The notes under the pieces: generated by a model
What the model was told of the DNA's origin: nothing
The model's database searches: none
Seen by the model: the letters and a program-made list of their open reading frames with translations, nothing else
Source of the DNA: Nitrospira sp.
GTDB lineage: Bacteria; Nitrospirota; Nitrospiria; Nitrospirales; Nitrospiraceae
DNA length: 47,544 nt
NCBI GenBank assembly: GCA_030444405.1
Contig: JARFPM010000011.1
Span: 1-47,544 of the forward strand
Reading direction: 5' to 3'
Position numbers and translations under genes: made by a program
Part shown: in pieces, positions 1,677 through 26,949 of the stretch
Position numbering within the stretch: the first letter of the stretch is position 1
Layout: the number at the start of each line of letters is the position of its first letter

Positions 1677-2159
1677 CTATGGAAGCTTGGCAATGTTGTC
1701 CAGCTCCACCTTGAACGGCTCACGATCCTTCCAGAGCCAGTCGAACGGCAATTTTAGGAACGCTTCGATGCGGGCTCGTAACGTGCGATAGGCCTGCTCG
1801 AACTTCGCGTCAATTTCAGCGTCGCTCCCGGTCGCTTTGGCCGGATCTTCCACTCCCCAATGGGCACGCAATGCCGGGCCGAGATAGGCCGGGCAGGCTT
1901 CTCCGGCTGCATTCCCACACACCGTGATGACGAGATCCGGAATGGCCGGAAGGTCGTCCCACGACTTACTATGCAAGCCAGCGGTCGCAATCCCTTCGCG
2001 CTGTAGTAAGGCCAGGGAGCGCGGATGGACCATCCCAGTCGGATGGCTCCCCGCACTCATGGCGCGCCACTCAGGCCCTGCGAGGGCATTAAATGTGGCC
2101 TCCGCCAACACGGAGCGGCAGGAGTTGCCGGTGCACAGAAATAAGACGGAGCGTGTCAT
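1677..2159 (-). CDS. arsC: Arsenate reductase, low-molecular-weight phosphatase type
   Basis: A 160-residue enzyme of the low-molecular-weight protein tyrosine phosphatase fold, predicted to reduce arsenate to arsenite with thiol donors. The P-loop CTGNSCR (Cys9-X5-Arg15) is at the N-terminus and the segment IPDLVITVCGNA (near residue 75) carries a further Cys typical of thioredoxin-coupled ArsC. The C-terminal DP-containing loop (VEDPAKA) matches the family. ATG at 2159 is chosen because it overlaps the TGA of the upstream arsenite exporter (ATGA), which implies translational coupling. An earlier ATG at 2183 would lie inside the exporter gene. Product arsenite would then leave through that exporter. 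Confidence 0.9.
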   Translation of the reverse strand: MTRSVLFLCTGNSCRSVLAEATFNALAGPEWRAMSAGSHPTGMVHPRSLALLQREGIATAGLHSKSWDDLPAIPDLVITVCGNAAGEACPAYLGPALRAHWGVEDPAKATGSDAEIDAKFEQAYRTLRARIEAFLKLPFDWLWKDREPFKVELDNIAKLP

Positions 2160-3253
2160 GCGGAGCCCTCCGCTGGGAACCAATCACGAGTCCGATTGCA
2201 CACAGCGCAGACGGACAACATGACCGGGACTTCCACCAACACTCCCACCACCGTGACCAGCGCGGCTCCTGATTCGGGTCCGTACAACGCGATGGCCGTG
2301 GCCACCGCAAGTTCAAAGAAGTTGCTCGCCCCAATGAGCGCCCCTGGTGCGGCCACAGCGTAGGGCACGCCCAGCCATTTCATCAGGCCATAGGCCAGCG
2401 ACGAATTGAAATAGACCTGAACAAGGATCGGGATGGCAATCAAGAGTACATGAAATGTCTTCCCCAGAATATTCTCGGCCTGGAAGGCAAAGATCAGGAC
2501 GAGCGTGGCAAGAAGAGCACCGATGGTGACGGGCGCAAAGCGCGGAAGCAGACTCTGTTCAAACCAGGTCTTCCCGCGTCGGCGGATGAGCCACCGCCGA
2601 AGCAGGACTCCGAGACTCAAGGGAATCACAATGAAGGCCATCACCGAGTACAGCAAGACTTCGAACGGAACGCTCAAGGATGACGCGCCGCTGACGAGAA
2701 ACCCCACCAGGGGAGCAAAGAGGACCAGCATGATGAGATCGTTCACTGATACCTGCACCAGGGTATAGGCCGGATCGCCATCCGTGAGATAGCTCCAGAC
2801 GAACACCATGGCAGTACAGGGTGCCGCAGCCAGGATGATCGCCCCGGCAATGTATTGATCCGCGTCCCCTGGAGTAATCCAGGCCGAGAACACATACCGG
2901 AAAAAGAGCCACGCCAAGAAGGCCATGGAAAAGGGCTTCACGACCCAGTTGACGAACAACGTGACCAGCAAGCCTCGTGGCCGTTTCCCCACATCGCGCA
3001 GCGCCGCAAAATCGACCTTCATCATCATCGGGATGATCATCAGCCAGATCAAAACGGCAATCGGGACATTGACGTGACTCCCTTGGCCAAATTCGAGGCT
3101 TCTGAGCACCTGCATGGTCTCCGGCGCCCACTGCCCCAACAGAATTCCCGCCACCATACAGAGCCCCACCCAGACAGTGAGGAAGCGTTCGAAGACATTG
3201 AGCCGTTTTTCACTCGGCTCCGCACAGAGCTCAGGATGTATGGCAATATCCAT
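2156..3253 (-). CDS. acr3: ACR3-family arsenite efflux permease
   Basis: A 365-residue inner-membrane protein with about ten hydrophobic segments, predicted to extrude As(III) (or antimonite). ACR3 hallmarks are present: the conserved Cys in APCTAMVFVWS near residue 146, followed by SVNDLIML, and EVPVMLSVC near the C-terminus. ATG at 3253 has GGGGAGGTC about 6 bases upstream; the preceding in-frame GTG is less likely. It sits between arsR and arsC on the same strand, and its stop overlaps the arsC start. Length is normal for the family. Expression should be released by ArsR when arsenite binds. Confidence 0.92.
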   Translation of the reverse strand: MDIAIHPELCAEPSEKRLNVFERFLTVWVGLCMVAGILLGQWAPETMQVLRSLEFGQGSHVNVPIAVLIWLMIIPMMMKVDFAALRDVGKRPRGLLVTLFVNWVVKPFSMAFLAWLFFRYVFSAWITPGDADQYIAGAIILAAAPCTAMVFVWSYLTDGDPAYTLVQVSVNDLIMLVLFAPLVGFLVSGASSLSVPFEVLLYSVMAFIVIPLSLGVLLRRWLIRRRGKTWFEQSLLPRFAPVTIGALLATLVLIFAFQAENILGKTFHVLLIAIPILVQVYFNSSLAYGLMKWLGVPYAVAAPGALIGASNFFELAVATAIALYGPESGAALVTVVGVLVEVPVMLSVCAVCNRTRDWFPAEGSA

Positions 3254-3306
3254 CACACGACCTCCCCTGACCGTATTCGATCTCTCATTGGGTATCCCCT
3301 CTACTG

Positions 3307-3340: not shown

Positions 3341-3664
3341 TTACAAACACCGGGATGAGGTGCCGACTCGTCGGCGTGAGCCTCGTAACGACTCGACGAC
3401 CGCCTCCAACTCCTCCAGGGTTTCTTGATCGAGGGAATAGTAGATCCACCGCCCCTCGGGACGATCCATAATGAGTCCTGCGTCCTTGAGCACTTTCAAA
3501 TGAAAGGATAGGCGCGACTGCGCCGTCTTCATCACGTCGGTGAGGTCGCACACACATTGCTCACCGCCCTTCAGACGCTCCATGATCTCCAACCTCGTGG
3601 GGTCTGACAGCGCGTGGAAGAGACTTACACCTTTGTCTCGTCGCTTGGGAATGGTGGTTGCCAT
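3341..3664 (-). CDS. arsR: ArsR-family arsenic-responsive repressor
   Basis: A 107-residue winged-helix repressor of the ArsR/SmtB family. The N-terminal dimerisation helix is followed by LSDPTRLEIM, the metal-site motif CVC (Cys37, Cys39), a recognition helix region TAQSRLSFHLKVLKDAGLI and a beta-wing RPEGRWIYYSL. As(III) binding to the Cys pair releases DNA in characterised members. It is the first gene of the ars operon. The ATG at 3664 has no Shine-Dalgarno sequence, and a strong promoter ends only about 9 bases upstream, so the mRNA may be leaderless. A downstream start would cut into the dimerisation helix. The C-terminus carries one more Cys near the end. Confidence 0.9.
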   Translation of the reverse strand: MATTIPKRRDKGVSLFHALSDPTRLEIMERLKGGEQCVCDLTDVMKTAQSRLSFHLKVLKDAGLIMDRPEGRWIYYSLDQETLEELEAVVESLRGSRRRVGTSSRCL

Positions 3665-4721: not shown

Positions 4722-5567
4722 TTAGGAGCAGAGACCCAATGCCGCCTCGATCGCCTGGAGATGTGCCTGAACCTGCCTCTGTAGCGGCGACCGGCCTGCC
4801 TCAAGAGTTAGGGAACAGGGGATTCCTTGGGCGAATCCATACAACGCCATGGGCCACCCATTAGGATTTCCAAACGTGGGATGCCTCACAATGACTCCGC
4901 CATCGGTTGACCTCCCGTCGATCGTCGCATCAAGATTCACGGGCATAATCGTGCGAATCCGTTCGAGCACACGGTGTCCGATATCCGCCCCAGGCCGAAC
5001 CGTCTCGTACAGATAATAGCCGGCGCTATCTGCATCTACGTGGAGCTCCAGGCTCAGATCAAACCGTTGTTGTGCCACCGACTGAACGAACAGGACCTCT
5101 TGCGGCGGGTGCGACGAGTTGAACTCCCGGTTCAGATCGCGCCCGTCACCGTTTTCACGTGTGTCATGTTCATAGCCCCACGGGTTGAGGCAGGGAAGCA
5201 TCGTGATATCCCACCGATGAAGAAACTTCATATAGGCGTGAGACTCAAGCCATTCACACAACCCTTCCACTCCGGCGAGCTCATCGCCATGAATGCCGGC
5301 AGACAGCAACACGCGCTGCGGCGCGCCGCTTCCCAGGACGACTTGCATGAACTCATAGGTCTTGCCTGCCGCGGTGAACTCATGAAGACCCAACCTCGCC
5401 TCGCGATCCATACTCACAGCCAAACGGACCCTTTCGACCAGGTGGGTATACCCTCGTAGGGCTGCGGGGTTCATGAGAGACCGAGCGTCATGAGGATCAG
5501 ATTGTTTCAAGGACATGCCGATCCGCGTCGTGTCGCAGGCATCGGGCTTGAAGCACTCGGGGCGCAT
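4722..5567 (-). CDS. M14-type zinc carboxypeptidase / AstE-aspartoacylase-like hydrolase
   Basis: A 281-residue soluble protein with the zinc site of the M14 / succinylglutamate desuccinylase superfamily: GIHGDELAGVEGL (His-x-x-Glu, near residue 92), LNREF near 145, SLELHVDA (second zinc His, near 174) and the catalytic Glu in TLEAG near 257. Members hydrolyse amide bonds in C-terminal amino acids or N-acyl amino acids; which one applies here cannot be told. The start is uncertain: ATG at 5567 gives the longest frame but lacks a clear ribosome-binding site, and ATG at 5516 is an alternative. The gene converges on the truncated ZIP with 6 bases between stops. Confidence 0.75.
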   Translation of the reverse strand: MRPECFKPDACDTTRIGMSLKQSDPHDARSLMNPAALRGYTHLVERVRLAVSMDREARLGLHEFTAAGKTYEFMQVVLGSGAPQRVLLSAGIHGDELAGVEGLCEWLESHAYMKFLHRWDITMLPCLNPWGYEHDTRENGDGRDLNREFNSSHPPQEVLFVQSVAQQRFDLSLELHVDADSAGYYLYETVRPGADIGHRVLERIRTIMPVNLDATIDGRSTDGGVIVRHPTFGNPNGWPMALYGFAQGIPCSLTLEAGRSPLQRQVQAHLQAIEAALGLCS

Positions 5568-6704: not shown

Positions 6705-9700
6705 CTATGACGACGATGACCGCTCGCCACGTCTCGCAACGGTCGAGGGCACCACGGTGGCCAGCTGTTGGTAAAGCGCGGTGCGGTAGGCATTGTGTCG
6801 TTGAGCCGCAGCCGCCAACTCGCGAAAGCGCTCCGGATCTTGATGCTCAACGATTCTAAATCTGGTCTCGTTGCGCATGAACTCTGTCAGATCCGGGCGG
6901 CTTGGTACTGAGTCAAGCTGCAAGGCGGGCACTCCTTGCTCGATCCGGCGCGGGTCGAATCGATACAGCGGCCAATAGCCCGATTCCACTGCCAGCTTCT
7001 GCTGGTCAAGACCAAATTTCAAATCGTAGCCATGGGCGATACAGGGGCTGTAAGCGATCAGAAGTGAGGGACCGGGATACGATTCCGCTTCCTGAAATGC
7101 GCGCACCGTCTGGGTGTCTTTGCCCCCGAAGGCGATCCGCGCCACATAGGCGGTGCCGTACGTCATCGCCAGTAAGCCCAGATCCTTCTTCGGCGTCGCC
7201 TTGCCGGCGGCCGCGAACTTCGCGGCTGCGCCCAATGGTGTGGCCTTCGACTGCTGTCCTCCCGTATTAGAGTAGACCTCCGTGTCGAGTACAAGGATGT
7301 TCACGTTCTGCCCCATCGCCAACACGTGGTCCAGTCCTCCGTAGCCGATGTCATAGGCCCAGCCGTCACCGCCGACGATCCAGACGCTCTTTTGCACCAG
7401 ATAGTCTGCCAGTGTCATGAGCCGACGCGCTTCCGAAGATGTCAACGCCGACAACTTTTGCTTCAGGGCCGTGACTCGCTGCCGTTGGACGGCCAGATCG
7501 GCCTCACTCTGCTGATCAACCTGCAGAAGGTCATCGACTAACGTCGTGCCAAGCTGTGGAGCGAGATACTTGAGCAGTGCCCGCGCCTGCTCGCTGTGCT
7601 GGTCAAGTGCCAGTCGAAAGCCGACCCCGAATTCCGCGTTGTCCTCAAAGAGCGAGTTCGACCAGGCCGGGCCGCGTCCGTCCCGATTGACGCTATAGGG
7701 GGTTGTTGGCAAATTTCCTCCGTAGATCGATGAGCAGCCGGTGGCATTGGCGATCAACGCCCGGTCGCCGAAGAGCTGGGTCAACAGTTTGAGGTAGGGT
7801 GTCTCGCCACAGCCCGGACAGGCACTCGAATATTCAAACAGGGGTTCAAGAAACTGAATGCCCTTCACATCCGGTTTGACGATCGTCCGATCGGCCTCGG
7901 GAAGCTGGAGAAAGAACGCGTAGTTGTTTCGTTCGGCCTCACGCAATGGACGTTGTGCCTGCATATCGATCGCTTTGTGCTTCGGATTGGATTTGTCTTT
8001 AGCAGGACAGACCATCACGCAGAGGTGGCAGCCGGTGCAATCCTCGGGGGCGACCTGGATGGTATAGCGGAACCCGGGAAACTCATGCGCTTTGTAGCCC
8101 ACGACCTTGAACGTCGAGGGCGCACCCGTTAAAGCCTCAGAGGCATAGACCTTGGCGCGAATGGCCGCATGGGGACAAACCATCGCGCACTTGTTGCACT
8201 GGATGCAGATGGTCGGATCCCAGACGGGAATTTCTTGGGCCAGATTGCGCTTGTCCCATTTGGCCGTGCCCACAGGCCAGGTTCCGTCCACGGGAAAGGC
8301 ACTCACCGGGAGCCAGTTACCTTTGCCGGCCAGCAGGAGCGCCGTGACTGTTTTGACAAAGTCCGGCGCGTCCTCGGAAATCAAGGGCGCGCATGAGCGA
8401 GTCGCGGTGACGTGGTCGGAGAGATGGACTTCGTGCAGATGCGCAAGCGCCTGATCCACGGCGGCCAGATTCTGCCGCACTGTCTCAGCCCCCCATTTGC
8501 CATACGTCTCCTGGATCGCCTGTTTAATCTCGGCGATTGCTCGCTCTATCGGCAGAATCTCGGAGAGGGCGAAGAAACAGGTCTGCATGATCGTATTGAT
8601 GCGTCGGCCCAACCCCGTGTCGCCGGCGACGCGATAGGCGTCAATCACATAAAACCGGAGGCGCTTGTCGAGGATCTGCGTCTGGGCTTCACGTGGAAGC
8701 TGATCCCAGACTCTGTCGGCGGCAGCAGGCGCGTTTAACAAGAAGATGCCGCCGGGCGCTGCATATTCCAGCACATCGTACCGATCCAGAAAGTCAAACT
8801 GATGGCAGGCCAGAAAGCCCGCCTGTCGAATGAGCGAGGCCGAGCGGATCGGACGGGGGCTCATCCGGAGATGCGAGATCGTCATCGCGCCGGCTTTGCG
8901 CGAGTCGTAGACGAAATAGCCCTGCACCCAACGGTTGGTGCCTTCGCCAATGATCTTGATCGAGTTCTTGTTGGCACCGACCGTTCCATCGGAGCCGAGT
9001 CCGAAGAACACGGCTCGGAGCACTTCAGGCGGTTCAATGTCAAACTCAGGATCTACCGGGAGCGAAGTCCGGCTGATATCGTCCGTGATGCCAACAGTGA
9101 AATGACGCGCCGGACGGGCCTTGGCGAGTTCATCGAAGATGGCTTTGACCATGGCCGGCGTGAATTCTTTCGAGGAAAGCCCATACCGCCCCCCGATAAC
9201 GGTCGGCTTTTCCGTAAAGCGGCTCAGTCCCTCGGCACGTCCCTCATGCAAGGCGGCGACCACATCGAGATAGAGCGGCTCGCCCACCGAACCAGGCTCC
9301 TTCGTCCGGTCCAGCACAGCGAGGGCCTGGGTGGTCGGTGGAAGGGCGGCCAGGAACTGCTGAACTGCGAACGGACGATAGAGGCGGACCTTCAGCACGC
9401 CGACGCGCTCGCCACGTTCGAGCAGCCAGTCGACCGTCTCATGAACGGTGTCAGCACCTGAGCCCATCAGCACGATCACGCGGTTGGCGTCAGGATGGCC
9501 AGCGTAGTCGAACAGGTGGTACTGACGGCCAGTGAGTGCGGCGAACTGGTCCATGACTCTTTGCACGCGGTCTGGACAGGCCGAGTAAAACGGGTTACAG
9601 GCTTCGCGTGCCTGGAAGAAGGCGTCCGGATTCTGGGCTGTGCCGCGCAGGACCGGACGGTCCGGGGTCAAGGCCCGCTCCCGGTGGGCCTGAATGGAGC

Positions 9701-10295
9701 CCTCGTCGATCATGGCGAGGAGATCTGCATCCTTCAGTTCCTCGATCTTGGCGATTTCATGGGACGTGCGGAAGCCGTCGAAGCAATGGATGAAGGGAAT
9801 CCTCGTGGCAAGGGTCGCGGCCTGGGCGACGCAGGCGAGGTCATGCGCCTCCTGTACGGAGCCGGAGGTCAGGATGGCGAACCCGGTTTGGCGACAGGCC
9901 ATCACATCGGAATGATCGCCGAAGATGGACAGGGCGTGAGTGGCGACGGTGCGCGTGGCCACATGCATGCAGAAGGCCGTGAGTTCTCCGGCGATCTTGT
10001 AGAGGTTGGGAATCATGAGTAGAAGGCCCTGCGAGGCCGTGAAGGTCGTGGTCAAGGCGCCGGCCTGCAGGGCTCCGTGGACCGCCCCGGCGGCTCCGCC
10101 TTCCGACTGCATCTGCGCAATGGTGGGAATCGTCCCCCAGAGATTCGGCTTCTGTTGCGTCGCCCATTCGTCGGCCAGTTCGCCCATCGCAGAGGCGGGG
10201 GTGATCGGATAGATCGCGATGACCTCGTTCGTCCGGTAGGCGACCGAGGCCACGGCTTCATTGCCGTCTATCGTGAGTATTCGTCGTTCGTTCAT
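6705..10295 (-). CDS. nifJ: Pyruvate:ferredoxin (flavodoxin) oxidoreductase, single-chain
   Basis: A 1196-residue fused enzyme, full length for the family. It interconverts pyruvate and CoA with acetyl-CoA and CO2, using ferredoxin or flavodoxin. Domains in order: N-terminal pyrimidine-binding/alpha domain (YPITPASAMGEL near 30), transketolase-C-like domain, gamma domain (FFGLGSDGTVGANKNSIKII near 430), 2x[4Fe-4S] ferredoxin domain (CIQCNKCAMVCPH and CTGCHLCVMVCPAK, about 690-760) and the C-terminal TPP/[4Fe-4S] domain (SACPGCGETPYLKLL, then NATGCSSIYGGN). In an autotroph it could act as pyruvate synthase. A second, multi-subunit oxidoreductase is encoded at 13999-17133. ATG at 10295 has a GAGGAC-type site upstream. 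Confidence 0.95.
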   Translation of the reverse strand: MNERRILTIDGNEAVASVAYRTNEVIAIYPITPASAMGELADEWATQQKPNLWGTIPTIAQMQSEGGAAGAVHGALQAGALTTTFTASQGLLLMIPNLYKIAGELTAFCMHVATRTVATHALSIFGDHSDVMACRQTGFAILTSGSVQEAHDLACVAQAATLATRIPFIHCFDGFRTSHEIAKIEELKDADLLAMIDEGSIQAHRERALTPDRPVLRGTAQNPDAFFQAREACNPFYSACPDRVQRVMDQFAALTGRQYHLFDYAGHPDANRVIVLMGSGADTVHETVDWLLERGERVGVLKVRLYRPFAVQQFLAALPPTTQALAVLDRTKEPGSVGEPLYLDVVAALHEGRAEGLSRFTEKPTVIGGRYGLSSKEFTPAMVKAIFDELAKARPARHFTVGITDDISRTSLPVDPEFDIEPPEVLRAVFFGLGSDGTVGANKNSIKIIGEGTNRWVQGYFVYDSRKAGAMTISHLRMSPRPIRSASLIRQAGFLACHQFDFLDRYDVLEYAAPGGIFLLNAPAAADRVWDQLPREAQTQILDKRLRFYVIDAYRVAGDTGLGRRINTIMQTCFFALSEILPIERAIAEIKQAIQETYGKWGAETVRQNLAAVDQALAHLHEVHLSDHVTATRSCAPLISEDAPDFVKTVTALLLAGKGNWLPVSAFPVDGTWPVGTAKWDKRNLAQEIPVWDPTICIQCNKCAMVCPHAAIRAKVYASEALTGAPSTFKVVGYKAHEFPGFRYTIQVAPEDCTGCHLCVMVCPAKDKSNPKHKAIDMQAQRPLREAERNNYAFFLQLPEADRTIVKPDVKGIQFLEPLFEYSSACPGCGETPYLKLLTQLFGDRALIANATGCSSIYGGNLPTTPYSVNRDGRGPAWSNSLFEDNAEFGVGFRLALDQHSEQARALLKYLAPQLGTTLVDDLLQVDQQSEADLAVQRQRVTALKQKLSALTSSEARRLMTLADYLVQKSVWIVGGDGWAYDIGYGGLDHVLAMGQNVNILVLDTEVYSNTGGQQSKATPLGAAAKFAAAGKATPKKDLGLLAMTYGTAYVARIAFGGKDTQTVRAFQEAESYPGPSLLIAYSPCIAHGYDLKFGLDQQKLAVESGYWPLYRFDPRRIEQGVPALQLDSVPSRPDLTEFMRNETRFRIVEHQDPERFRELAAAAQRHNAYRTALYQQLATVVPSTVARRGERSSSS

Positions 10296-10374: not shown

Positions 10375-10632
10375 TCACGCCACCGGTCCGACATCCGCAC
10401 CCATTGTGATCACCACGTCACGCACACCGGGCAGCCGCCGGACTGCTTCCTCGCACCGTTCCTGGAATTCCATCCCCAGCGGGCAGGCCGGCGTCGTGAG
10501 GACGACAGTGAAGGAGACCCGTTCGCCGTCGATCCGAATGTTCCGGATCATGTCGAGACTGACCAGATCCTGGCCCAGTTCCGGGTCCTGCACGGTTCGC
10601 AGCGCGTCCAGCACGGCCTCGGTTGTGATCAT
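10375..10632 (-). CDS. MIP18/DUF59-family Fe-S assembly factor, copy 1
   Basis: An 85-residue protein of the MIP18/PaaD-like family (DUF59), which helps assemble or deliver iron-sulfur clusters. It shows EAVLDALRTVQDPEL at the start, DLVSLDMIR, and the family's conserved Cys in TTPACPLGMEF. It is about 70% identical over its length to the product of 11265-11528, so the two arose by duplication. It lies directly upstream of nifJ, whose product carries three clusters. ATG at 10632 is preferred because its paralogue starts at the same residue; a GTG at 10650 would add six residues. Confidence 0.85.
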   Translation of the reverse strand: MITTEAVLDALRTVQDPELGQDLVSLDMIRNIRIDGERVSFTVVLTTPACPLGMEFQERCEEAVRRLPGVRDVVITMGADVGPVA

Positions 10633-10708
10633 TGTGGAGGACCCTCTCACCCTATCAGGAATGCTCAGCGGTTGCTGCGTTGCCTCTTTGGGAAGGCTGC
10701 ATAGGTCG

Positions 10709-10872: not shown

Positions 10873-11142
10873 TTACGCGTGTGGTTCGGATGCGCCGCAA
10901 CAGGAACCACTCTTGTCCGGTTGAGAACCCACGGACACCAACTGTCTAGCCGTCTCATACACATTGCTCGCAGGAACCTGCTTCACTTTGTTCGCCAGTT
11001 CGATCGCCTCTCCAATCTGTGCGTCCGTCAAGCCGGTCTTTCGCGCGACAGGGATGTGGTATTCGACGCAAGGGACGCAGTTGCTTCCAATGGCGGCACC
11101 GATGGCCACCAGCTCTCTTTCGCGTGGGCTCAACTCATTCAT
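10873..11142 (-). CDS. Carboxymuconolactone decarboxylase / AhpD-like protein
   Basis: An 89-residue all-helical protein of the CMD/AhpD family. It has the motif ELVAIGAAIGSNCVPCVEYH: Glu, then CxxC (residues 24-27) and His three residues later, the redox-active thiol arrangement of AhpD-type alkylhydroperoxidase proteins. The C-terminus carries a further Cys pair (SGSCCG), which may bind metal or form a disulfide. ATG at 11142 has GGAAGGAA about 8 bases upstream, so the longer frame to 11226 is rejected. It lies between the two MIP18-like genes, which suggests protection or repair of Fe-S enzymes such as NifJ; that role is inferred. Confidence 0.85.
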   Translation of the reverse strand: MNELSPRERELVAIGAAIGSNCVPCVEYHIPVARKTGLTDAQIGEAIELANKVKQVPASNVYETARQLVSVGSQPDKSGSCCGASEPHA

Positions 11143-11264
11143 TATGTGTTCCTTCCCTTGTTGTTCTATCGGAAACGTGGGGCAACGCGGCTGCCGTGAC
11201 CTCGCCTTACCAATCACACACTGCACGGCCGCCAGATATCGACGGGCCAGGTATATATTTCCAG

Positions 11265-11528
11265 TTACGAAGCCCCAGCCATCGTTTCACTGTCACTCAC
11301 GGTGATTGTCACGTGCTGCACACCAGGCAGTTGCCGAACCGCCTCCTCGCACCGTTCCTGAATCTCCATACCCAGCGGACAGAACGACGTGGTGAGGACC
11401 AGGGTGAACCGGACCTTATCCCCGTCGATCTCAACGTCTCGAATCATGTCAAGACTGACCAGGTCATCTCCCAGTTCCGGCTCTTGCACCGTTCGCAACG
11501 CGTCAAGCACCGCTTCTTTCGTAATCAT
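11265..11528 (-). CDS. MIP18/DUF59-family Fe-S assembly factor, copy 2
   Basis: An 87-residue MIP18/PaaD-like protein, paralogous to the product of 10375-10632. The N-terminus EAVLDALRTVQEPELG, DLVSLDMIR and the conserved Cys in TTSFCPLGMEI are visible. ATG at 11528 has GAAGGA upstream. The stop of sufB lies 18 bases upstream on the same strand, so this copy is probably cotranscribed with sufCB and acts as a cluster carrier or SufBC partner. Copy 1 lies nearer nifJ, perhaps serving that enzyme; the split is speculative. Confidence 0.85.
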   Translation of the reverse strand: MITKEAVLDALRTVQEPELGDDLVSLDMIRDVEIDGDKVRFTLVLTTSFCPLGMEIQERCEEAVRQLPGVQHVTITVSDSETMAGAS

Positions 11529-11546: not shown

Positions 11547-12824
11547 TTAGAGGGAGTGTTCAGCCGTGGCTGCGAGCACCCGCTGGATGTGCTTGGTCAA
11601 GATCTCGGGAAGACCCGGCAGATCGATCTGCATGAAGCCGCGGACCAGGGTTGAAATTGCGACATCGCGCGGGAGCCCGCGCGTCATGAGATATTCCACG
11701 GCTTCTTCGGCGATCGGGCCGACAGCGGCCTCATGTGACAACTGACTCCGTGGCGCCGAGTCAGCCAGCAATTCGGGGATCGCATGCATCCTGGCATGCT
11801 CCGAGAGCAGCATGCCGCGGCAGTCCAGATGCCCCCGACTCTCGTTGTGCTGACCGACTAACTCACCCCGCAAATACATCGTGGACCGGTCTCTGGCAAC
11901 GGCCCGTGAAATGGCATCGGCCCGGGTGCCCTGGCCCGTCAGCTCCACGTAAGTCCCCATATCGATGAGGGACTCCTTGAGGCCCACCATGATGCTGTTG
12001 AACTGGGCCCGTGCACCCGCTCCACGGAGGAAGACACGTGGATAGGCCTGCACCGAGCGTACGGGGCGCAGCAGGATATAGTTACTCACAAACGTCGCAT
12101 TCTCTTCGGCAATGACGCCGGTTCTGGGCCGGACATGGAACCCTTCAGCCCAGTTATGGATCATCGTCTCCGATAGTGTCGTGCCCTTTTTGAGGAACAC
12201 TTCGGTCACACCGATGTGGAGCCCCGTTTCAACGCGCGGATGCAGCGTACAACCGGTAATGAGTTGGGCCTCGGCGCCTGCTTCGAGAATGATGACGTTG
12301 TGGACGTTCTGGCTGATGTTGTTCTCCTGCACGAGCAGGCAGGCCTGGATGGCTTCCTTGACGCGTTGGCCGGCGAACACTCGCAAGAAGAACCCGCCCG
12401 TTTGAGCCAGCTCCACCGCTGCGGTGTACTTGTCCTGATCGACCGCAACCGCCTGCCACCAATAGTCTCGTAACCAGTCATAGGTCTTAAGAGCCTCAGC
12501 TGTGGTCATGAGCTCGAGCTGGCCCTGGTAGCGGCGCTGAATGCGCTCGTAGATCGCGGAGTAGTCGACTTGGAAATACGACGCCGCGCGGCCAACTTCC
12601 TCGCTGTCGATACCGGCCAGCAACGCGGCCTCTCGCATCTGCTGCTCAAGCGATCGCAGGGCCTCGACCCGTTGGCGTTGCTGTTCAACAGGGTGACTGA
12701 ACCTCGTCAGGTCCAAATCGGGGCCATAGAGTGCCGGTTGCGATTGAGCCTGGATGGCCCGAGCACGGAGCGATTCCTCCCTGGCGCCTATTGGACTGGG
12801 ATGTGCGAGCGACAGATCGGACAT
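11547..12824 (-). CDS. sufB: SufB/SufD-family Fe-S cluster scaffold
   Basis: A 425-residue SufBD-family protein, which with the SufC ATPase builds iron-sulfur clusters in the cytoplasm. The N-terminal helical part (1-140) is followed by the beta-helix core with NNISQNVHNVIILE near 168, HNWAEGFHVRPRTGV near 218 and the conserved C-terminal region SRGHLDCRGMLLS and LSHEAAVGPI near 365. No separate sufD, sufS or sufU lies here, so this is a minimal two-gene SufBC (SMS-like) system as in archaea and deep-branching bacteria. Its start overlaps the end of sufC by 37 bases, which suggests coupled translation. Confidence 0.9.
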   Translation of the reverse strand: MSDLSLAHPSPIGAREESLRARAIQAQSQPALYGPDLDLTRFSHPVEQQRQRVEALRSLEQQMREAALLAGIDSEEVGRAASYFQVDYSAIYERIQRRYQGQLELMTTAEALKTYDWLRDYWWQAVAVDQDKYTAAVELAQTGGFFLRVFAGQRVKEAIQACLLVQENNISQNVHNVIILEAGAEAQLITGCTLHPRVETGLHIGVTEVFLKKGTTLSETMIHNWAEGFHVRPRTGVIAEENATFVSNYILLRPVRSVQAYPRVFLRGAGARAQFNSIMVGLKESLIDMGTYVELTGQGTRADAISRAVARDRSTMYLRGELVGQHNESRGHLDCRGMLLSEHARMHAIPELLADSAPRSQLSHEAAVGPIAEEAVEYLMTRGLPRDVAISTLVRGFMQIDLPGLPEILTKHIQRVLAATAEHSL

Positions 12825-13546
12825 TTCCCGTACCCGTGTTTGCGAATTTCTTCCAGTAACTGGAGTCCTTCCCCTTCGCCGACGAGCGTGCCGCCGTAGA
12901 GCACATGCCCCACATCCGCCCGCAGATAATTGAGGATGTGGCCCGTGTGCGTAATGATCAGCGCCGCCGGAGCGAGTGCCGCGGCACTGGACTGCTTCAC
13001 CAGACAGGCGAGCGCTTGCCCCACCACCGCAATACTGTCCAGATCAACCCCGGCGTCCGGTTCGTCGACTAGGGCCAACGCTGGCTGCTGGGCCATGAGC
13101 TGAAGCAATTCGGCTTTCTTGATTTCGCCGCCTGAAAACCCCACGTTCACATCTCGCGCGAGCAAACTAGAGCACCCAAGCTGGTCGGCTAGTTCGACAA
13201 TCCTGGTCCCATTTTTCCCATGTGCGGAGACTTCCGCGAGCTGTCCCAACGGAATGCCACGCACACTCGGAGGGCGCTGCTGCATGAGGCCGATCCCCAG
13301 GCGCGCTCGCTCATCGACAGAGCGATGGGTCATGTCCTGGCCCTGAAACAGGATCCTGCCCTTCGTGACGCGATAGCGACTCAGTCCCATGATGGCCATC
13401 AGCAACGAGGACTTGCCCGATCCGTTGGGCCCGAAGAGCACATGCGTCTCTCCCGGCCTGATCCGCACGCTGACATCGTGGAGGATCAGTCGTCCGCCGA
13501 CCGCAACGCTCACCTCCTCAAGCTGGAGAATGTCGCTCATGTCCAT
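12788..13546 (-). CDS. sufC: SufC-type Fe-S assembly ATPase with C-terminal CPIC motif
   Basis: A 252-residue ABC ATPase without membrane domain. Walker A GPNGSGKS is near residue 39, the Q-loop is LMQQRPP, the signature is FSGGEIKKAELLQL and Walker B is ALVDEPDAGVDLDS; the D-loop follows, and the switch His is in IITHTGHIL. The SGGEIKK form of the signature is typical of SufC. The last 12 residues read KCPICRSHIPVQ, a Cys-x-x-Cys plus His tail that looks like half a zinc or Fe-S site and is not usual in SufC. ATG at 13546 (or 13540) starts the gene; the ribosome-binding site is weak. It overlaps sufB by 37 bases. Confidence 0.9.
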   Translation of the reverse strand: MDMSDILQLEEVSVAVGGRLILHDVSVRIRPGETHVLFGPNGSGKSSLLMAIMGLSRYRVTKGRILFQGQDMTHRSVDERARLGIGLMQQRPPSVRGIPLGQLAEVSAHGKNGTRIVELADQLGCSSLLARDVNVGFSGGEIKKAELLQLMAQQPALALVDEPDAGVDLDSIAVVGQALACLVKQSSAAALAPAALIITHTGHILNYLRADVGHVLYGGTLVGEGEGLQLLEEIRKHGYGKCPICRSHIPVQ

Positions 13547-13579: not shown

Positions 13580-13972
13580 TTATGTCGCAGGACTCGGCTC
13601 GGCTTCCGCCTGCTTAAGAATGCCTTCGACAGATTCACGCAGACGATCCAGAATTCCCGCGTTGTCGGTGCCTCGGATATCGACCGGCACGAAATGCTTG
13701 TCATTGAACCTGGTCGCCCGAATGAGTTTCTTGAAGAGCTTCTCCTGGGCCTTCGGGGCGCAGGCGCCCACGAGCAGGTAGCTGTCCGGGCTTGCCGTCT
13801 TCATGGCCTCTTCCAAAATGGCATTCCCCCCCTGACCACATAACTGCGGGCTCAGGACCGTGTACTTCACGTCCAGATCAGACTCGACCTCGAAGGGGAG
13901 TTTGTTCATGTCGGAATCTTTGAATGAATCACAGAGCCCCTTGCAGTTGCACAACAACACCTTGATCTCCAT
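13580..13972 (-). CDS. Small HdrA-N-terminus-like protein, probable accessory (epsilon-like) subunit of POR
   Basis: A 130-residue soluble protein starting VLLCNCKGLCDSF, with LSPQLCGQGG near 40, a LLVGACAPKAQEKLFKK segment near 65 and HFVPVDIRGTDN near 92. The order Cys-rich start, LC..G, and GACAPK..LF resembles the N-terminal domain of heterodisulfide reductase HdrA, here without its FAD and ferredoxin domains. It has the best ribosome-binding site in the window (GGAGGTGATCC) and lies 26 bases after porB. Hydrogenobacter-type oxoacid oxidoreductases carry a fifth small subunit of unclear role; this may be the equivalent, but I cannot confirm homology. It could bind a cluster through its five Cys. 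Confidence 0.65.
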   Translation of the reverse strand: MEIKVLLCNCKGLCDSFKDSDMNKLPFEVESDLDVKYTVLSPQLCGQGGNAILEEAMKTASPDSYLLVGACAPKAQEKLFKKLIRATRFNDKHFVPVDIRGTDNAGILDRLRESVEGILKQAEAEPSPAT

Positions 13973-13998
13973 GGATCACCTCCATACAGCTGTGAATG

Positions 13999-14928
13999 TT
14001 ATCCGCTGACCCGTTTCCAATAGGCATCGACCCGCTCCTGAATGTGTCGAATGGCTTCGTCTTGTCTCGTCGGCTCAAAGAGATGGCGGAACCGGCCCTG
14101 AAGCTTGAGATAGTCTTCCACCGGCTTCAGCTTGGGAATATAGGTGTGGGTGACCTGACCGTTGATCGCCTCCTTCAATGGCCACAGACCGGTCTCGACC
14201 GCCAGCCTCGCGACCTCCGGTGTCTCACCCGGATCGTACAACCAGCCGGTAGGACAGGCGGACAATGCGAGGAAAAGTTTCGGCCCCGTAAACTTGGCCG
14301 CACGTGCGAATTTTTCTTCCAGATCCAAAGGATACCGCGGTGCCACTGTCGCAATGTACGGCGGTGTGTGGGCCCGCCAGATCTCAAAAATATCCTTCTT
14401 CTCCTGGATCGTGCCCGCCGGATGTTGCAGGCTGCAAGGCGATGTAGCCGTCCGCGCGCCGTACGGCGTGGAGGACGAAAGCTGCATCCCGGTATTGCCG
14501 TAGGCTTCGTTGTCATAACAGAAATAGTAGAAATCGAGCCCGCGATAGAGGGCGCCGGACGTCGAAGAGAGCGCCATATCGTAGGTGGAGCCGTCGCCTC
14601 CCAACACCACGACTTTCAGATCTTCTTCCTTCGGCAACCGCCCTTTCGCGATCAAGACGTCGAGAGCGTCGCGCACACCCTGTGCGCCGGCGGGCGCCGA
14701 CCCCATGGTCGTATACAACCAGGACCCCTTGAAGGGAGTAAACGGATAGGCGGCCAGCATCGTAAAGCACCCGGCGGCATTCACATAGAGAACGTCGTCG
14801 CCTAACACCTTGGCGGCCAGTCGCAGCGACTCTAAGCCCCCGCATCCGGCGCAAAGAGATGTTCCCGGGAACACGTGCTCTTCGCTGGGAATCTGTTTGA
14901 TCTTTTTGAATGTCTCGCGTTGCCACAT
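13999..14928 (-). CDS. porB: 2-oxoacid (pyruvate):ferredoxin oxidoreductase, beta subunit
   Basis: A 309-residue TPP-binding subunit. The cluster-ligand and TPP motifs are present: LCAGCGGLESLRLA near 25, YVNAAGCFTML near 48, the GDGSTYD TPP motif near 113 and the Mg-ligand region YDNEAYGNTGMQLS near 138, with a late cluster Cys in SACPTGW. Together with alpha and gamma-delta it forms the CoA-acylating oxidoreductase that couples pyruvate (or another 2-oxoacid) to ferredoxin. ATG at 14928 has AAGGA upstream. The exact substrate, pyruvate or 2-oxoglutarate, cannot be told from motifs alone. Confidence 0.9.
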   Translation of the reverse strand: MWQRETFKKIKQIPSEEHVFPGTSLCAGCGGLESLRLAAKVLGDDVLYVNAAGCFTMLAAYPFTPFKGSWLYTTMGSAPAGAQGVRDALDVLIAKGRLPKEEDLKVVVLGGDGSTYDMALSSTSGALYRGLDFYYFCYDNEAYGNTGMQLSSSTPYGARTATSPCSLQHPAGTIQEKKDIFEIWRAHTPPYIATVAPRYPLDLEEKFARAAKFTGPKLFLALSACPTGWLYDPGETPEVARLAVETGLWPLKEAINGQVTHTYIPKLKPVEDYLKLQGRFRHLFEPTRQDEAIRHIQERVDAYWKRVSG

Positions 14929-15001: not shown

Positions 15002-16231
15002 TCACGATCCCGGTGCTGCTGCCAACATTTGCAGCTGCGTCATCTCGCGGTGCTCGGCTTCCGTGTACAGGAGGACCGGCCCGATGCCTTTTTCTCGGAC
15101 GCCGGCCTCTGCCGTTTGCTCAAAGATCGTCCTGAACTCGCCTTCGGAGAGATTCTTTCCTCCCAGGCCGCCGATGAAGGAGCAGAGCGCCCGTGGCCGC
15201 AGCGCCTCATGATAGAGACAGGCCGCGATTTCCTGGAAGAGGATACCGCCCTGCCCCGGAGCCAAATTCTGATCGAGCACCGCAACGGCCCGGCGGCTTC
15301 TCAGCGCGCCCCGGATGGCATCCGCCGGCCAGGGACGGATCATGCGCAGCCGGAGCAGGCCCACACGCCTGCCCTCCGCCCTGGCGGCATCAACCGCAAC
15401 CTTGCCTCTGCTCGCAAAAGCGTTGGTCATGACGAGCACATCCTCCGCATCGTCAAGCCGATAGCCCTCGACCACGTCGTACCGCCGTCCGAACAGTCGT
15501 TCGAATGCCGCAGCCGTCTCACTATGCACGTCCAAGGCGTTCATGGCGGCCAGATGCATTTGATGCCGGAAATAGGAATATGGTGTCCCGCCGAGCACCG
15601 CCACACCGAGCGCATGCGGGGCCGAGGCTTTGAAACCCAGGTGGGCAGGTCGAAACGGCGGCAGGAACTGCGCGACCTGCTCCGGGGCCGGCAGAATCAC
15701 CGGCTCCCGGGTGAAGGACAGATAGAAGCCGTCCAGATTGACGATCACCGGCAACATGACTCTCTCATCCTCCGCAATCCGATAGGCTATGAGAATGGAA
15801 TCCAGCACTTCCTGGCAGGTCTCGGCGTGGATTTGAAGAAAGCCGGAGTCCCGCGCGGCCAGCACATCGTTGTGATCCGGTTCCAATGTGATCGGGGAAG
15901 CCAGCGCCCGGGAGACATTGACCAGCACCAGCGGCGCGCGCCATCCGGAGATCGAATAGAGCACTTCCATGGCATACAACAGACCCTGACTGGACGTCGC
16001 CGTGAACACCCGGGCCCCCGTGGCCGCGGCAGCCCCGGCAGCCGTCATCATGGAATGCTCGGAATCCATGGTCACAAACCGCGCAGCCATCACACCGCTC
16101 TCGCACCATTTGGCCAACGCCTCCACGATTTCCGTCTGGGGCGTGATGGGAAACGCGGGAATGTAGTCCACCGCAGACAGCCGCGCGCCCCACGCGGCCG
16201 CCAGATTGCCGGTCATCATTTCGCCCGCCAT
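15002..16231 (-). CDS. porA: 2-oxoacid (pyruvate):ferredoxin oxidoreductase, alpha subunit
   Basis: A 409-residue alpha subunit. The N-terminal substrate/TPP domain has FPITPQTEIVEALAKW near 25, then TMDSEHSMMTAAGAAAATGA near 54, TATSSQGLLYAMEVLY near 78, and the transketolase-C-like C-terminal half with ALRSRRAVAVLDQNLAPGQ near 311. ATG at 16231 has GGGAGGAGG upstream and overlaps the end of the gamma-delta gene by 16 bases, so translation is probably coupled. The order gamma-delta, alpha, beta, small HdrA-like protein makes a compact operon feeding into sufCB. Confidence 0.92.
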   Translation of the reverse strand: MAGEMMTGNLAAAWGARLSAVDYIPAFPITPQTEIVEALAKWCESGVMAARFVTMDSEHSMMTAAGAAAATGARVFTATSSQGLLYAMEVLYSISGWRAPLVLVNVSRALASPITLEPDHNDVLAARDSGFLQIHAETCQEVLDSILIAYRIAEDERVMLPVIVNLDGFYLSFTREPVILPAPEQVAQFLPPFRPAHLGFKASAPHALGVAVLGGTPYSYFRHQMHLAAMNALDVHSETAAAFERLFGRRYDVVEGYRLDDAEDVLVMTNAFASRGKVAVDAARAEGRRVGLLRLRMIRPWPADAIRGALRSRRAVAVLDQNLAPGQGGILFQEIAACLYHEALRPRALCSFIGGLGGKNLSEGEFRTIFEQTAEAGVREKGIGPVLLYTEAEHREMTQLQMLAAAPGS

Positions 16232-17133
16232 GCCACGCCTCCTCCCTTCTCCCGCTCAGCCACCAGGGCATCGGTCGGACACTCATGGACGCAGATCTGG
16301 CATCCCTTGCAATGATCATAATCGATCACCGGCTTATCGTCTTTGGTCATCGAGATGACACCGTCGGGGCAATAGACGAAACAGAGCCAGCAGCCGTTGC
16401 ACTTGTCGGGAACCAGGACTGGCCGGAAGGTCCGCCAGCCGCCTGTTTCGCGCAGCACCGAATTCGCTGCTGCGCTGATCCTGGCAGTTCCTCTGGTCGG
16501 TGGTTCATACATCGGCGCTTGAAGCTGTGCGGGAACGATCGGCTGCGGGACACCTGTTTCGATCGCGACTGGCTGAACTGTTTCATAAGATTGGTGCGCG
16601 ACCGCCTGATTGCGCTCGATGTCTGAAGTGGCAAGCCCAAGTTCCGCCAGCTCCCGTGCAATTGCCTCATGGATTGATCCCTGTCGGAGCCCTACGAGTC
16701 GTCCGGCGACGGCGCCGAGCAGCGCACTGATCGCGCCTCGCTTGCCAAAGTGTTGGACCACGATCTCGGTCAAATCCAATGTGGTGAGGCGACCGGGAAG
16801 GGATGTTTCGGCACGAAATTGTTCGGCGGACAATGGTGAATTGACGAACACAACCGTCTTCTCGCCGACTCCCTGGAGCACCCGGGCTGCAGGATCCCCG
16901 ATGAGAGAGGCATCAGCGACAACCACGAGATTGGGGTGAGCGACGATCCCTCGTTCACGGATCGGTTCTCGCGCGATACGAGTAAATGCCGCTACCGGAG
17001 CCCCACGCCGCTCGGCTCCATAGATCGGCGAGTCCTGCGCCACGAACCCTTCCAGGAAGGCGGCGGTTCCCAGAATGCGGCTGGCAGTCTTTGCACCCTG
17101 CCCACCTCGGCCATGAAAGCGAATAGCTAGCAT
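16216..17133 (-). CDS. porCD: 2-oxoacid (pyruvate):ferredoxin oxidoreductase, fused gamma-delta subunit
   Basis: A 305-residue fusion. Residues 1-180 are the gamma subunit (MLAIRFHGRGGQGAKTAS, then YGAERRGAPV and VNSPL), and the C-terminal 75 residues form a two-cluster ferredoxin (delta): CNGCWLCFVYCPDG and CKGCQICVHECPTDA, each with CxxCxxCxxxCP. A Pro/Ala/Thr-rich linker (about 180-225) joins them. Gamma and delta are separate genes in many organisms. ATG at 17133 lies 8 bases after the ytxH-like stop, so that gene is likely in the same transcript. No strong ribosome-binding site is visible, which fits coupling. Confidence 0.9.
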   Translation of the reverse strand: MLAIRFHGRGGQGAKTASRILGTAAFLEGFVAQDSPIYGAERRGAPVAAFTRIAREPIRERGIVAHPNLVVVADASLIGDPAARVLQGVGEKTVVFVNSPLSAEQFRAETSLPGRLTTLDLTEIVVQHFGKRGAISALLGAVAGRLVGLRQGSIHEAIARELAELGLATSDIERNQAVAHQSYETVQPVAIETGVPQPIVPAQLQAPMYEPPTRGTARISAAANSVLRETGGWRTFRPVLVPDKCNGCWLCFVYCPDGVISMTKDDKPVIDYDHCKGCQICVHECPTDALVAEREKGGGVAWRAK

Positions 17134-26537: not shown

Positions 26538-26949
26538 TTTTACTCCCTTCGAGGACCAAACCTTGCGATCAGTGTGCCATCGTCTCCCAACGCATCTGGA
26601 GACATTTCCCATTATTTGTCGATGGGTTAGATGGTTTTGCTAAGATGCTGCGGAGAATAGGGGACTGAACTGGCGATAAATACCCCGGGGCCTCATCGCC
26701 CACTGGTGCAAGATGCTACAGCCCTAATTGCGGAGTGTGACCTGCGCATAGGTTTGCGGGAGTGTCCTCGTTCGGGCATGACGGCTCGACACAATAGGCG
26801 GTGGCCCTTATCTGCACTGCTCGAAAAACGAGAATTCTTCTCATTTATGATCAGTCATTCTATATTTATACCTACGCTTATACGCCAGTAGACGGATGGT
26901 TAATAGCGGATATTCTTAGCGGTTGAGAAACCGTCAGTGTCTCGCTTAC
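26538..26949. other. Intergenic region between cytochrome c and the NRPS gene
   Basis: About 410 bases that must hold promoters for the minus-strand cytochrome and the plus-strand NRPS gene. The half nearest the NRPS start is AT-rich. It includes GAGAA-TTC-TTCTC (26830-26842 region), a TATATTTATAC run near 26865 that could be a -10 region, and a CGGTT-GAGA-AACCG hairpin at 26920-26933 just before the start codon. No good -35 or operator was identified. Confidence 0.45.

Follow-up and report, generated by a model that had tools for sequence, protein, structure and literature searches.

The hdrN locus

The window (the whole stretch of 47,544 nucleotides of a Nitrospira contig analysed here) carries an ATG-initiated open reading frame (ORF) on the minus strand at 13972–13580, stop codon included, which was given the working name hdrN. 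Its 130-residue product, a stand-alone homologue of the HdrA N-terminal domain, contains five cysteines (C8, C10, C14, C45, and C71). The gene follows porB at a distance of 26 bp and precedes sufC by 33 bp, and both neighbours share its strand; the original prediction had placed a 130-residue, cysteine-containing protein between these two genes without naming a strand, and both the ORF and the five cysteines were found. It had also credited the gene with the strongest ribosome-binding site in the window, and this holds for the 38 window genes compared, with gene starts as set by the ORF list: the Shine–Dalgarno sequence GGAGGTGATC (13974–13983, minus strand) forms a duplex of -19.2 kcal/mol with the anti-Shine–Dalgarno motif, ranking first, and the next-best gene reaches -12.3 kcal/mol. 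hdrN is single-copy in the source genome (G000, 3.46 Mb), and its codons are under purifying selection, with dN/dS of 0.036–0.13 in the 29 pairs listed out of 55 between intact Nitrospira copies.

All the genes of the run around hdrN are on the minus strand. Before it stand the genes of a 2-oxoacid:ferredoxin oxidoreductase, namely porCD (16216–17133), which encodes a fused gamma and dicluster ferredoxin-type delta subunit, porA (15002–16231, alpha subunit), and porB (13999–14928, beta subunit). Directly after it come a sufC-like gene (12788–13546), whose ATPase product has a C-terminal CPIC extension (YGKCPICRSHIPVQ) and falls below the TIGR01978 cut-off, and a sufB-like gene (11547–12824), whose best match is SmsB, far under the cut-off of that model. 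The run continues with a DUF59/FeS_assembly_P protein (11265–11528), an AhpD-family protein ending in SCCGASEPHA (10873–11226), a second DUF59/FeS_assembly_P protein (10375–10650), and a single-chain pyruvate:ferredoxin (flavodoxin) oxidoreductase (PFOR; 6705–10295; TIGR02176, 1734 bits, above cut-off). These are followed by a dihydroorotate-dehydrogenase-like gene and by a gene for an AstE/AspA-like protein of the succinylglutamate desuccinylase fold (4722–5567), which also lies between hdrN and arsR in several Nitrospira. The run then reaches an ArsR/SmtB-family metalloregulator (3341–3664; NF033788, E 1.1e-28, above cut-off), an ACR3 arsenite efflux transporter (2156–3256; TIGR00832, E 4.1e-115, above cut-off), and a thioredoxin-type arsenate reductase ArsC (1677–2183; TIGR02691, E 3.2e-23, below cut-off). 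Elsewhere in the window, the plus strand holds an ORF of 3,094 residues at 26923–36207.

Homology of HdrN to the HdrA N-terminal domain

As a single sequence, the hdrN product matches only HdrA models in NCBIfam, at their N termini and far under their cut-offs; the match to NF041778 (HdrA) spans model positions 10–96 of 771 with E 9.6e-6 and scores 23.7 bits where the cut-off is 1400. When a profile built from 20 relatives (A2) is run against PDB sequences, the five top matches are HdrA chains (E 3.1e-6 to 0.0067), and hhalign aligns HdrN with one HdrA at 97.4% and E 1.1e-11. The AlphaFold model (pLDDT 89.1, pTM 0.83) is built of alternating strands and helices; with this model, all five Foldseek matches at E ≤0.001 are HdrA, and the seven top rows of a VIA structure search are HdrA at Z 12.0–14.0, followed by a designed Rossmann protein at Z 9.3. 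No Pfam family matches at E 1, PHROGs gives no match, and a search of plasmids yields a single match, to a protein annotated as HdrA-family, at E 0.5.

The likeness to HdrA is thus beyond chance, and HdrN is a homologue of the HdrA N-terminal iron–sulfur domain, recognised by homology; at 130 residues, it is without the FAD/thioredoxin-reductase and ferredoxin domains of the ~650-residue HdrA. That it resembles the first domain of HdrA without the FAD and ferredoxin parts had been predicted originally, and NCBIfam, profile, hhalign, and fold all agree. The profile comparison with HdrA that was proposed at the time bears the similarity out, and the distinct known domain that would have spoken against it is absent from the Pfam results, with NCBIfam giving HdrA models only. 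Considered as a dicluster ferredoxin-like protein, HdrN has no Fer4 match; considered as a catalytic subunit of ferredoxin:thioredoxin reductase, it matches no Pfam family at E 1 by sequence; and considered as ArsD, it has no Pfam match at E 1 and no NCBIfam ArsD match at E 0.1.

Extent and distribution of the HdrN family

A pattern scan of contigs recovered 40 HdrN loci, which their record titles assign to Nitrospira, Acidobacteria, an Armatimonadetes metagenome-assembled genome, Geobacter and other Desulfuromonadales, Caldatribacterium, Caldiserica, Omnitrophota, Anaerolineaceae, Margulisiibacteriota, and Sumerlaeota. Pattern-free profile searches found stand-alone HdrN in 10 of 117 genomes in the class of G318, all at E ≤4.8e-55, with a 672-residue HdrA-type frame following far behind at E 3.9e-13; in the class of G309, they found matches in 18 of 200 genomes, four of them degenerate paralogues. 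In the phylum of G314, 10 of 251 genomes match at 1e-8, with one stand-alone protein, eight matches inside frames of 617–1,079 residues, and one 164-residue frame at a contig start. Among 79 Nitrospira genomes, seven have a full-length match, one of these with an in-frame stop, and two more have a partial match.

After removal of three duplicate contigs (L131, L134, and L136), 66 loci were retained, many of them close relatives, and 58 of these reach E <1e-30. This set of 58 includes L036, which has an in-frame stop; outside it stand the fragments L040, L042, L064, and L065 and the degenerate L186–L189. Clustering at 70% identity gives 15 clusters from 56 HdrN sequences, and in a FastTree phylogeny of 60 HdrN and 29 HdrA sequences, the HdrN sequences form one group, set off by a long branch and modestly supported (0.75).

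Pfam, NCBIfam, and PHROGs have no model for HdrN itself. A literature search found no description of such a protein, nor did the paper listings for arsEFG and SAO terms; the search covered few subscription papers, so this silence is weak evidence of absence. In papers containing both 'HdrA' and 'ars operon', the two terms stand in unrelated sections; passages of PMC8097209 do not describe the HdrA N-terminal domain, and passages of PMC9144182 cite ArsEFG work.

Two further observations concern related frames. An 866-residue ORF with Fer4 and hydantoinase/oxoprolinase domains (L184:5434-8034, minus strand) carries half an HdrN at its C terminus and adjoins an intact HdrN. The HdrA genes of other Nitrospirota at L044:8150, L046:6822, and L047:5665 have an in-frame TGA at codon 195, following TFPTMDCSA, beyond which the frame runs on to about codon 667; such a pattern is of the selenocysteine type.

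Cysteines and the putative cluster

Across 60 aligned HdrN sequences, C8 is kept in all 60 and C10, C45, and C71 in 56 each, and HdrA has cysteine at these same four positions in 29 of 29 sequences. Position 14 is cysteine in 51 of 60 HdrN and isoleucine or leucine in all 29 HdrA. L036 was left out of this alignment and L070, which has C14, was lost in trimming, so both are also absent from the counts over 60 and 56 sequences. The scan patterns contained C8, C10, and C14, and the conservation of these residues in L050–L089 is therefore built in; the pattern-free figures come from profile searches.

C14 is missing from five Terriglobia proteins (L178, L179, L180, L182, and L183), and C10, C14, C45, and C71 are all missing from four degenerate Terriglobia paralogues (L186–L189), which keep the remainder of the domain; no ferredoxin match was found within 8 kb of the latter, on stretches that are short. 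Acidobacterial HdrN from L063 and L173–L176 have C-terminal CxC tails, a possible further metal site. Among 56 sequences, those with C14 are linked to ars genes in 38 of 51 cases and those without it in 1 of 5, but the latter are kin and count as one or two events, on which this association rests.

C8, C10/C14, C45, and C71 stand at or after strands 1, 2, and 3, so in the predicted fold the cysteines would lie along one edge of the sheet, a placement taken from the secondary structure of the AlphaFold model. According to PMC9012536, the iron–sulfur cluster of the methanogen HdrA N-terminal domain is held by cysteines of the domain itself and by Cys197 of the other HdrA subunit, and lies on the electron route to free ferredoxin. 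C14 of HdrN may provide, from within the chain, the ligand that Cys197 contributes from a second subunit.

HdrN in arsenic-resistance gene clusters

HdrN genes recur in the arsenic-resistance gene clusters of bacteria, a neighbourhood that the original prediction overlooked. An ars gene (counting ArsR, ACR3, ArsC, ArsA, ArsF, ArsG, and DUF2703) lies within 8 kb of 41 of the 58 HdrN loci and of none of 29 HdrA control loci (9 regions from one set and 20 from another), and in the window ArsR, ACR3, and ArsC belong to the same-strand run. With at least 12 kb of flank, 27 of 35 HdrN loci have an ars gene (Fisher p 4.5e-11 against the 29 controls, a value that ignores relatedness). Loci found by profile alone show it in 13 of 17 cases, and 12 of the 15 clusters at 70% identity (56 sequences) have an ars-linked member. 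Other families within reach include ArsE-type thioredoxins (27/58 within 8 kb), ArsF (8/58) and ArsG (5/58), likewise within 8 kb, and ArsP-type permeases (21/58), all with no occurrence in the controls; most neighbour seeds were drawn from HdrN loci, a choice that biases the counts towards those loci, and each family name rests on one or two representatives. AhpD relatives occur within 8 kb of 12 of 58 HdrN loci and of none of the 29 controls, and the AhpD protein of the window may thus be another arsenic accessory.

Ars genes were seen in the examined DNA of 7 of 13 Nitrospira loci (the window, L037, L051, L056, L057, L058, and L036); none was found within 17–25 kb downstream in three (L050, L054, and L055), and the contigs of the other three (L052, L053, and L059) are too short for the search. 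Three Nitrospira loci, named here by genome (G006, G019, and G101), show no ars gene in 17–25 kb downstream or 8 kb upstream. The gene series of the window recurs in G196 with ArsD and ArsA added; in G017, the PFOR is missing, but the AstE-like gene is present, followed by ArsR-ACR3-ArsC. In L056–L058, the order is hdrN, the AstE-like gene, ArsR, a 276-residue gene, ArsC, a small gene, and ArsA; in L057, the 276-residue gene is ArsM and the small gene is ArsD. HdrN as ArsE itself was considered and ruled out, because ArsE is the TIGR00412 thioredoxin and the small protein encoded alongside HdrN is the member of that family.

Ferredoxin and oxidoreductase neighbours

Outside Nitrospira, 38 of 45 HdrN loci have a ferredoxin gene on their own strand at a distance of 300 bp or less, whereas no small ferredoxin gene adjoins hdrN by this measure in any of 13 Nitrospira loci. 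The originally proposed docking to ferredoxin is thus plausible from the former group, with the Nitrospira loci speaking against it. Within 8 kb and on either strand, a ferredoxin gene is present at 47 of 58 HdrN loci and 5 of 29 controls. POR-like genes occur within 8 kb of 11 of 58 HdrN loci, all Nitrospira, and of 2 of 29 controls. Other 2-oxoacid:ferredoxin oxidoreductase genes lie about 2–4 kb from the hdrN–ferredoxin pair in L178, L179, L182, and L183, with Pfam support for L179 and L182.

Two other partners suggested for the window protein fared less well. As the small fifth subunit of Hydrogenobacter-type enzymes (ForE/PorE), HdrN was rejected, the comparison having been made with enzymes of its own genome. 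Aquifex has dicluster ferredoxins of 9 kDa as epsilon subunits and CODH/ACS-like proteins of 21–28 kDa as delta subunits, according to PMC10052474. Other contigs of the source genome carry genes resembling such enzymes (L216 and L217, with alpha and beta subunits in L218), which we read from their ORFs as putative five-subunit enzymes. HdrN has no HMMER match at E 10 to the 13 subunit ORFs concerned, and BLAST gives two matches of 16–18 residues at E 0.93 and 4.5, so that no meaningful similarity was seen. Docking to a heterodisulfide-reductase-like complex was likewise set aside: seeds for HdrB, HdrC, and MvhD, whose genes would be expected near an HdrA, match at none of the HdrN loci examined versus 13, 16, and 29 of the 29 HdrA controls; the source genome yields no second copy of the HdrN domain at E values up to 10; and the CCG domain matches it twice, both times within one 951-residue frame.

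A proposed role for HdrN

Frequent ferredoxin neighbours, descent from an HdrA domain, and the nearness of 2-oxoacid oxidoreductase genes, which adjoin hdrN in Nitrospira and stand about 2–4 kb off in four Terriglobia loci without C14, together make a ferredoxin-linked [4Fe-4S] relay the likeliest role. We estimate at a little under one half (about 0.48) the probability that HdrN is a [4Fe-4S] protein that passes electrons from ferredoxin to arsenical or disulfide reduction. HdrN would then be a stand-alone HdrA N-terminal domain turned accessory of arsenic-resistance clusters, most likely with a single [4Fe-4S] cluster bound along the C-terminal edge of the Rossmann-like sheet, with putative ligands among C8, C10, C45, and C71 and with C14 replacing the ligand that HdrA takes from its partner subunit. 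It would exchange electrons with the dicluster ferredoxin encoded adjacent to it in most relatives outside Nitrospira, and in the window the ferredoxin domain of PorCD could act in this capacity. Electrons might thus run from a 2-oxoacid:ferredoxin oxidoreductase via ferredoxin and HdrN to thiol or arsenical reduction. Candidate end steps, judged by gene company, are the regeneration of an ArsE-type thioredoxin or arsenate reductase, or an ArsE/ArsF nitroreductase; the acceptor is a guess, since ArsE and ArsF are present in only part of the clusters.

Several observations weigh against the relay. HdrN has no known catalytic site, the 13 Nitrospira loci have no adjoining small ferredoxin gene, three Nitrospira loci (G006, G019, and G101) have no nearby ars gene, and only 7 of 79 Nitrospira genomes carry full-length HdrN; moreover, ferredoxin and thioredoxin genes could be common passengers of the ars islands of anaerobes. 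A more elaborate form of the proposal is less likely than not: HdrN and its ferredoxin may constitute a dedicated low-potential reductase branch of arsenic resistance that taps the POR/KOR ferredoxin of central metabolism for reducing ArsE or pentavalent and aromatic arsenicals, its [4Fe-4S] cluster including C14 and being kept loaded under arsenite stress, in some gene clusters, by the SufBC-like genes.

Weighing the alternatives

That HdrN serves the PorABCD of the window as a subunit or docking factor is highly improbable. The gene does lie between porB and sufC here, and porABCD adjoins it in several Nitrospira; however, hdrN is intact in L054 and L055 with no porABCD in the examined stretch, and in L056 and L058, where intact hdrN stands beside ars genes directly after a C-terminal remnant of porB (with an in-frame stop in L058), while G180 and G201 keep porABCD with hdrN broken or fragmentary. 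In G030, hdrN is well conserved apart from a single in-frame stop. It is distinctly doubtful, too, that HdrN works with the SufC/SufB-like pair and the DUF59 proteins as a scaffold or carrier in rebuilding iron–sulfur clusters damaged by arsenite. In Nitrospira, sufC-sufB comes immediately behind hdrN or with one or two genes between, and the same arrangement, in divergent sequence, is seen in L062, L077, L173, and L175; a sufB-like gene is found within 8 kb of 12 of 58 HdrN loci (outside Nitrospira, at L062, L077, L173, L175, and L180) and of none of 29 controls; and in the first Nitrospira set, intact hdrN and sufCB are mostly kept or lost jointly, with G101 a clear exception. Against this, 46 of 58 loci have no sufB match within 8 kb, some on short contigs, the homologous domain of HdrA serves electron transfer, and L055–L058 have intact hdrN without sufCB beside it, for which reason the idea that hdrN simply tracks sufCB was dropped. 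Since lineages keep hdrN or porABCD singly and hdrN is under purifying selection, the gene is probably retained for a reason other than the PorABCD or SufCB of the window.

The best rival to the relay, unlikely as it is, is the binding of As(III) by the CxCxxxC triad. HdrN would here act on As(III)/Sb(III) as a thiol metallochaperone, or else as a sink, its C8-x-C10-x3-C14 motif binding trivalent arsenic and passing it to ACR3, ArsA, or ArsP, for which ArsD, which hands arsenic to ArsA, provides the model. The ars context would fit, as would the presence of the triad in most members, its third cysteine being the one that HdrA is without, the loss of C14 in five Terriglobia mostly outside ars clusters, and the CxC tails of L063 and L173–L176. 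The four cysteine positions of the HdrA domain are nevertheless all conserved, even C45 and C71, which lie well away from the triad, the commonest neighbour of HdrN is a ferredoxin, L057 and G196 encode a true ArsD as well, and the sequences without C14 are related and amount to one or two events. About as improbable as iron–sulfur repair is the reading that HdrN is a general electron carrier for ferredoxin with no special link to arsenic, the redox pair having been captured by ars islands. In its favour, ars genes are missing from the 8 kb around 17 of the 58 loci, among them a clade (L179, L182, and L183) that is near 2-oxoacid:ferredoxin oxidoreductase genes, and ars genes do not adjoin three of the Nitrospira loci. 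Yet the window and G196, both among the 17, have ars genes further along the run, several others of the 17 are short contigs, and 12 of 15 sequence clusters have ars linkage, with 0 of 29 in HdrA controls.

Significance and comparison with known systems

Arsenic-resistance clusters are already well catalogued, and the recurrence in such clusters of about ten phyla (by record title) of a family without a Pfam or NCBIfam model, often beside a gene for ferredoxin, suggests that ferredoxin can supply electrons for arsenic detoxification. If the relay reading is true, detoxification in anaerobes and microaerophiles would be tied directly to ferredoxin and not to NADPH–thioredoxin alone. HdrN may also indicate what the HdrA N-terminal domain can do by itself, which bears on HdrA assembly.

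Like the epsilon subunit (ForE/PorE) of five-subunit POR/OGOR enzymes, HdrN is small and encoded beside 2-oxoacid oxidoreductase genes; epsilon, however, is a dicluster ferredoxin according to PMC10052474, and HdrN has no meaningful similarity to the 13 subunit ORFs of its genome with which it was compared. With the arsenite metallochaperone ArsD it has in common that both are small cysteine-rich proteins of ars operons, but HdrN matches no ArsD model, and L057 and G196 encode ArsD separately. At several loci, hdrN sits in one cluster with genes of the ArsE/ArsF/ArsG system, whose components are the thioredoxin-like TIGR00412 (ArsE), NF040494 (ArsF), and NF040495 (ArsG), none of which HdrN matches. 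The closest relative is HdrA itself. HdrN stands alone, mostly at 113–150 residues, without FAD, thioredoxin-reductase, or ferredoxin domains, and is found in ars clusters with no HdrB, HdrC, or MvhD match nearby; it has in common with the HdrA N-terminal domain (PDB 5odc, 7bkb, 8rvu, and 9sfi) the fold and four of the five HdrN cysteine positions, the fifth, C14, being additional in most HdrN members.
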